Positions 8,639-9,112 of a stretch of 42,584 nt of DNA are shown here, one piece after another (positions within the stretch are counted from its first letter, which is position 1; each line of letters opens with the position of its first letter). The position numbers and the translations under genes were made by a program. The stretch lies in the IMG/VR virus record IMGVR_UViG_3300047476_001660, positions 1 through 42,584 of that record; one strand, 5' to 3'. The notes under the pieces were generated by a model. The model did no database searches. It saw only the letters and a program-made list of their open reading frames with translations, and was not told the origin of the DNA. This stretch comes from a virus.

Positions 8639-8684
8639 GTCGTAACTGTTCATTTATCTTTTTGCTTTTATTTGTTTCTTTTCG

Positions 8685-8703
8685 AGACTTGCAGAGCAAG
8701 TCT
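8685..8703. other. 8-bp hairpin, no U-run
   Basis: AGACTTGC and GCAAGTCT pair perfectly around AGA. Neither strand has a T-run directly after it, so it is not a canonical intrinsic terminator. It lies between the gp26 extension stop and the rRNA-like segment and may end that structured region. Confidence 0.6.
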
Positions 8704-8744
8704 ATTGCTTTCGCTTTCGCTCAGCAATCTATTGCTTCGCTTAC
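8701..8744. repeat. short direct repeat TCTATTGCTT with adjacent CGCTT
   Basis: TCTATTGCTT occurs at 8701 and again at 8729, each followed by CGCTT-type sequence, with GCTTTCGC between them (GCGAAAGC on the other strand, a sequence known for an unusually stable mini-hairpin). Confidence 0.55.
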
Positions 8745-8796
8745 GGTTTACTAGATTAATTAATGTTCTTCTTGGAATACATTGATCTAGATGAAG

Positions 8797-8829
8797 ATCG
8801 TAATTCGGCCCAACAGGCCAAATTACAAT
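8797..8829 (-). ncRNA. 14-bp hairpin that pairs fully only in minus-strand RNA
   Basis: On the minus strand the two arms pair over 14 continuous positions around the loop UGUUG, with two G-U wobbles (8827/8799 and 8820/8806). In plus-strand RNA these two become A-C mismatches. This strand asymmetry favours a functional RNA on the minus strand. Confidence 0.6.
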
Positions 8830-9079
8830 GGAAACTCTTGATCTGAGTGCTTTCCTCGTACTAACTAAAAGAGATTATCCTCGGACACGGAAGCGGTCAT
8901 CCTGTACTCCCTACTCTAGATTCGATCATGACGGTACATATAGCCAGCCCTAGTTAGCGAACTGTTACATGCCGAGGTTGTATCTTTTTCACAGAGCCTC
9001 TATCTTTCAGCACCTTGCGTTAGTGCCTACCGAACTGCACCCAAGTTCTGAATATGGTATTGCACATATCCTCAATGGG

Positions 9080-9097
9080 GGTCGAGGTACCTCGACC
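9080..9097. repeat. 18-bp perfect palindrome
   Basis: GGTCGAGGTACCTCGACC is self-complementary over its full length. It sits inside the rRNA-like segment, splitting TGTTTGG from ACCTCGA. It could fold as a hairpin in RNA or be a protein-binding or insertion scar site. Confidence 0.8.
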
Positions 9098-9112
9098 AAA
9101 CAAAGCCGTATT

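Follow-up and report, generated by a model that had tools for sequence, protein, structure and literature searches.

What does a T4-like phage keep in the longest stretch of its DNA that holds no convincing gene? The window considered here, meaning all 42,584 bases of IMG/VR virus record IMGVR_UViG_3300047476_001660, comes from such a phage and carries T4-like genes for prohead protease, portal, a gp26-like hub, a PDDEXK_15 nuclease, gp46, gp47, a late sigma factor and the baseplate. Among the baseplate genes lies a 3932-aa open frame (23250-35048, plus strand); its counterpart position in the cultured phage PA5oct is taken by a virion structural gene of 11.5 kb. Between the nuclease (9113-9631, minus strand) and the convergent gp26 unit (7506-8638, plus strand) lies the gap at 8639-9112, described in a preliminary description as the only long gene-free one, and it is the longest stretch of the window without a convincing gene. 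The same description placed a structured RNA there, on the minus strand, and read it as scrambled large-subunit rRNA. The first part of that proposal holds: the gap encodes a structured RNA of about 330 nt on the minus strand, and it is not rRNA.

A structured RNA at a fixed place

The minus strand of the gap folds better than its shuffles (z -2.71), with the plus strand close behind (z -2.46), and the element is conserved in relatives. Over 327 columns it is 93.3% identical to its counterpart in one close contig (L002) and 97.6% in another (L003), whereas the syntenic DNA around it reaches about 79% and 83%, so the element is the more conserved part. A protein-coding reading was rejected: the gap holds frames of 41 and 65 aa only, the longer of which is disrupted in L003 by a 1-nt deletion despite the 97.6% identical sequence, and no open frame is conserved in relatives of the RNA element. 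ARAGORN found no tRNA or tmRNA in the whole window, no Rfam family was found in the window, and permissive filters (E ≤ 10) brought up only chance-level Rfam matches in the gap; weak Rfam matches in the window (Plastid-psbN, snoRNAs) were set aside as chance. Nor is there an Rfam match to a group I or group II intron, and the element sits between complete genes, none of them interrupted. The locus is laid out as follows.

7506-8411, plus strand: gp26-like baseplate hub protein, the convergent anchor on the opposite side
8685-8728, strand unspecified: two tandem hairpins between the RNA and the gp26 unit, a possible two-way terminator
8781-9108, minus strand: structured ncRNA (5' end near 9108, 3' end near 8781, as conserved extent and not as mapped transcript ends), conserved in relatives at the same junction; matched at 8782-8956 by R1, a covariance model made only from the Polynucleobacter-1-like branch of the family
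8782-8792, minus strand: motif ATCTAGATCAA (family consensus ATCTRGATRA), similar to the next, at the 3' end of the RNA
8838-8848, minus strand: motif ACTCAGATCAA (family consensus ACTCRGATRA)
8888-8923, minus strand: core GAATCTAGAGTAGGGAGTACAGGATGACCGCTTCCG, nearly invariant within the window branch (alignments A2 and A6; exact 29-nt scan)
9113-9631, minus strand: PDDEXK_15 nuclease (E 9.8e-24), directly 5' of the RNA
9771-11540, minus strand: gp46-like recombination nuclease subunit, the syntenic anchor on the RNA strand

Sequences similar to the tandem hairpins are present in relatives. The window offered no convincing candidate for a promoter or terminator of the RNA. An AT box at 9109-9116 (ATAAAATA) was tried as a T4 late promoter and lacks statistical support. 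The T4 late-promoter consensus TATAAATA occurs only twice in the window, at 7552-7559 (minus) and 13568-13575 (plus), just 5' of a 1007-aa gene and a 254-aa gene, a number of boxes that is not above chance.

Is the element also found at the nuclease/gp26 junction of related phages? It was looked for there, and considerably more than a hundred contigs of related phages have it in this position. A scan based on the nuclease returned two close contigs with the same element right after the nuclease stop, an exact scan with 29 bases of the core returned 8 contigs, and a 20-base core of the Polynucleobacter-1-like branch gave at least 120 matches. From the 495 contigs matching in a gp46-based scan 80 loci were taken, and most of those that extend far enough proved to contain the RNA in iterated nhmmer searches. 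Misassembly, one of the origins considered in the preliminary description, is excluded because many independent metagenomes have yielded contigs with the same element at this junction. Searches further afield were negative: blastn with both branches found no relative among 50,697 phage records, and the exact core patterns are absent from one genome per species of 84,980 prokaryote species.

Of the contigs retrieved with gp46, 37 extend to gp26, and every one of them has the RNA between the two genes. These 37 are the only unbiased loci, since those from L095 on were fetched via the RNA itself; in gp46 they are the ones most similar to the window, and they include a few near-duplicates. When all loci are counted the figure is 105 of 106. 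The exception, L004, whose gp46 is only 51% identical, has a weak R1 match (4661-4824, minus strand; 28 bits, E 0.001) between gp46 and gp26 and on the gp46 strand, which is possibly a third, more distant branch. A relaxed-pattern match in another contig (L014) was rejected as chance, since it falls in coding sequence that has no relation to this locus. In 153 of 153 loci the RNA shares the strand of gp46, in 134 of 134 it is opposite to gp26, and each of the 15 contigs searched whole, up to 345 kb, has a single copy. Across the sampled clade the RNA is therefore as regular as a structural gene.

Its start is close to the stop codon of the upstream gene, nearly always that of a nuclease, which the RNA abuts. 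The gene directly upstream (n = 179) is a SegE-type GIY-YIG nuclease in 147 loci, a PDDEXK nuclease in 20 and another gene in 12, so that the upstream gene is swapped at a fixed place: PDDEXK in the window branch (9113-9631, minus), SegE-type GIY-YIG in most others (for example L010:3634-4074, plus). On the other side the distance from the RNA to gp26 reaches 3.7 kb in some loci, where genes intervene and the RNA is kept.

Kinship with Polynucleobacter-1 RNA and the fold of the core

Many of the relatives at this locus carry Polynucleobacter-1 RNA (RF01718). It was found in 10 of 18 records, always about 50-60 nt 5' of the R1 core, with scores of 84-120 bits across relatives (84-114 bits in L026, L021 and L062), and the full RNA of this branch spans at least about 350 nt. 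Because so many relatives carry RF01718 as the 5' part of their RNA, the 141-nt motif makes up no more than the leading part of a longer phage RNA. The window RNA itself has no match to the RF01718 covariance model at E ≤ 10, and stays below the gathering score of 37 bits; it is a divergent branch, a distant and previously unrecognised relative of Polynucleobacter-1 RNA. Profile searches connect the two. A hidden Markov model (HMM) of the window branch matches L029 (1.5e-36) and also, without an intermediate, L078 of the Polynucleobacter-1-like branch (8e-6), while an HMM of the Polynucleobacter-1-like branch matches L029 at 2.7e-19 and L075 at 2.3e-14, so that the window is linked to RF01718-bearing RNAs at the same locus through L029, L019, L038 and L075 as well as directly to L078. 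The best match of R1 in the window (8782-8956, minus strand; 18.5 bits, E 0.01) is weak alone, an antisense false match elsewhere reaching 23 bits.

Comparison of the two branches points to a fold built from these elements, all on the minus strand.

9080-9097, minus strand: 5' hairpin GGTCGAG/CTCGACC, with compensatory changes in the window branch
8945-8964, minus strand: hairpin PB (CAGTTC/GGGCTG), whose loop contains PA strand 1 (CTAACTA, 8951-8957)
8861-8867, minus strand: PA strand 2 (TAGTTAG), which pairs with the PB loop as pseudoknot 1; covariation in both branches
8928-8932, minus strand: PK strand 1 (GTCAT)
8896-8900, minus strand: PK strand 2 (ATGAC), in the loop of hairpin PD (8907-8911/8889-8893), forming pseudoknot 2
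8870-8917, minus strand: helix PC (AGAG 8914-8917/CTCT 8870-8873), with strong covariation in the Polynucleobacter-1-like branch
8804-8822, minus strand: 3' hairpin PF (TTTGGCC/GGCCGAA)

In the Polynucleobacter-1-like branch (29 sequences) the proposed helices, PK included, are paired in 97.8% of cells against 39-53% when slid, and in the window branch (9 distinct sequences) in 94.3% against 31-50%; the structures were read from the sequences tested, which biases them favourably over their slid versions but does not produce changes on both sides of a pair. Such both-side cells number 54 against 14.5 in shuffles in the first branch, where 11 pairs are altered on both sides, and 18 against 6.4 in the window branch. 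None of 500 shuffles of the Polynucleobacter-1-like branch reaches the observed value for cells paired, both-side changes or covariation score. These compensatory changes support a core with two pseudoknots. The individual helices are established in this way, and all of them would coexist in one fold; the 5' half of the window RNA probably folds according to an RNAalifold consensus that contains compensatory pairs.

What the RNA may do

The loci have in common a homologous, single-copy RNA of fixed place and strand whose helices covary and which persists beside a different upstream gene. In such an arrangement, where the next gene is convergent, the RNA is excluded as a leader of that gene, and its retention both with an unrelated upstream gene and with genes before gp26 speaks in favour of an independent function. 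The most likely reading, with fair probability, is a structural or protein-binding ncRNA that acts in trans and would be made together with the gp47-gp46-nuclease genes. Such an RNA, some 330 nt long, would follow these genes immediately on the minus strand and be transcribed with the gp46 unit or just behind it. The loop of hairpin PB would reach a downstream strand (pseudoknot PA) and that of hairpin PD an upstream strand (pseudoknot PK), giving a compact core with helix PC between the pseudoknots, followed by a 3' hairpin flanked by the motifs ACTCRGATRA and ATCTRGATRA. The stable RNA would then accumulate and act in trans during infection, in a structural or protein-binding capacity and not as leader of a downstream gene. 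The RNA scaffold suggested in the preliminary description is possible.

Could the fold instead serve the mRNA that it follows? A cis-acting 3' UTR, which would protect, process or terminate the gp47-gp46-nuclease mRNA or insulate it from the gp26 unit, with no role for a free RNA, ranks second and is considerably less likely. The RNA almost always follows the nuclease gene with hardly any space, which speaks against a free ncRNA and would fit a 3' UTR too, as would its fixed same-strand place behind gp46 and the nuclease near the upstream stop codon, the convergent neighbour and the tandem hairpins at 8685-8728. However, the RNA is kept with an unrelated upstream gene in 12 of 179 loci and with up to 3.7 kb before gp26, and two pseudoknots with invariant unpaired stretches over 330-450 nt would exceed what a terminator or stabiliser needs.

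The same 12 loci, in which neither nuclease is directly upstream, bear on the improbable reading of the RNA as a partner of the adjacent nuclease, for example bound by it or guiding it. A GIY-YIG or PDDEXK nuclease does lie directly upstream in 167 of 179 loci, but the two have unrelated folds, and neither family is known to be RNA-guided. A shade less probable still is an element acting as DNA, such as an origin of replication or a recombination site, with an incidental transcript: the single copy and the fixed place beside recombination genes would suit it, but the compensatory base-pair changes in both branches, pseudoknots included, indicate selection on the RNA fold.

Scrambled or captured large-subunit rRNA is dismissed as next to impossible, being already refuted for E. 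coli 23S and the Rfam LSU models. The short strings like 23S domains V-VI are present as quoted in the preliminary description, but their resemblance does not go beyond chance: 7- to 10-mers in common with these E. coli domains lie inside the range of dinucleotide shuffles or at its edge (P 0.05 to 0.29), the 8- and 9-mers at about 0.05 and the remaining tests within the shuffles. No LSU family was reported at E ≤ 10 with permissive filters, the best BLASTN match to 23S has an E-value of 0.58 and is not at the expected place, and the 36-nt core at 8888-8923 has at most 8 consecutive bases in common with 23S. For rRNA this is the outcome that the preliminary description had itself named as refuting. 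The strings decay in relatives, where other parts of the RNA are conserved: TTCAGAAC becomes TTCAGAC or TTCGGAC, CAGTTCGGT becomes CTGCACGAT or CTGTACGGT, and TTAGTACGAG becomes TCAGTGTGTA. Two of the "rRNA" strings, CTAGGGC and TTAGT, are halves of phage-specific helices. Mitochondrial-like fragmentation and rRNA recombination fall with the rRNA origin.

Cultured relatives and known RNA systems

Judged by gp46, the closest phages in culture are PA5oct with its kin (49% identity), Phosso and Atu_ph07. In PA5oct the gene order is that of the window clade, and a resolvase gene separates gp46 from gp26. Searches with R1 were negative for PA5oct, Atu_ph07 and Phosso, both around gp46 and over the complete records, and an over-extended profile match in these relatives was rejected as coding sequence of a small ORF beside gp26. 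A gene-poor stretch at the equivalent locus of PA5oct (L223:15190-16130) folds far better than its shuffles (z -4.05), as does one in Phosso (L225:15480-16180; z -5.45, with a sub-threshold EGFOA match of 29 bits). Both stretches may encode further large structured RNAs in this position. Their sequences do not align beyond chance with each other or with the window RNA family, so that an analogous role is conjecture. With two cultured phages of the same gene order that have a long, well-folding, gene-poor stretch there, what an RNA does at this locus is accessible to laboratory experiments. A broader reading is put forward only tentatively, and is probably not right in full: a single-copy double-pseudoknot RNA, shared by essentially all members of a large clade of T4-like, partly jumbo phages, would be a core component of infection that works in trans, either as an RNP or as an assembly of RNA alone, with the Polynucleobacter-1 motif only its variable 5' domain and the PA5oct and Phosso stretches its functional analogues.

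GOLLD and ROOL are large structured RNAs of phages and prophages, with pseudoknots and of unknown function (PMC12286853). The window RNA resembles them as a large structured phage RNA with pseudoknots, but it is shorter, has no Rfam match and lies between gp46 and gp26, whereas they occur near tRNA islands and the window has no tRNA. The packaging RNA (pRNA) of phi29 is a phage-encoded structural RNA with loop-mediated pairing. It serves as a comparison of working principle only, as the window RNA has no Rfam match and no sign of a packaging role, and T4-like motors are not known to require RNA. The likeness to EGFOA (RF02955) consists in the sub-threshold match (29 of 37.7 bits) that Sinorhizobium phage Phosso has at the corresponding locus; the window has no such match, and the Phosso gap has no sequence similarity to the window RNA family.

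The closest known system is Polynucleobacter-1, described by Weinberg et al. in 2010 as a probable RNA, probably cis-regulatory, from Burkholderiales and fresh water or estuary samples (PMC2864571). In the literature searched, which mostly lay outside subscription journals, no other paper naming RF01718 and none joining "phage" with "Polynucleobacter-1 RNA" was found. What is new is limited to the window branch, which Rfam 15 does not recognise, and to the full-length double-pseudoknot extension, of which no description was found. Same-locus relatives have RF01718 as the 5' part of the same RNA, near the core common with the window; that double-pseudoknot core, however, falls outside the 141-nt Rfam model, and the RNA here belongs to phages and faces a convergent gene, with none of the placement before a gene that the 2010 annotation implies (opposite gp26 in 134 of 134, on the gp46 strand in 153 of 153). 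In these contigs the probable cis-regulatory motif of 2010 is thus the front of a longer phage RNA, and the double-pseudoknot core behind it is the more widely conserved part.
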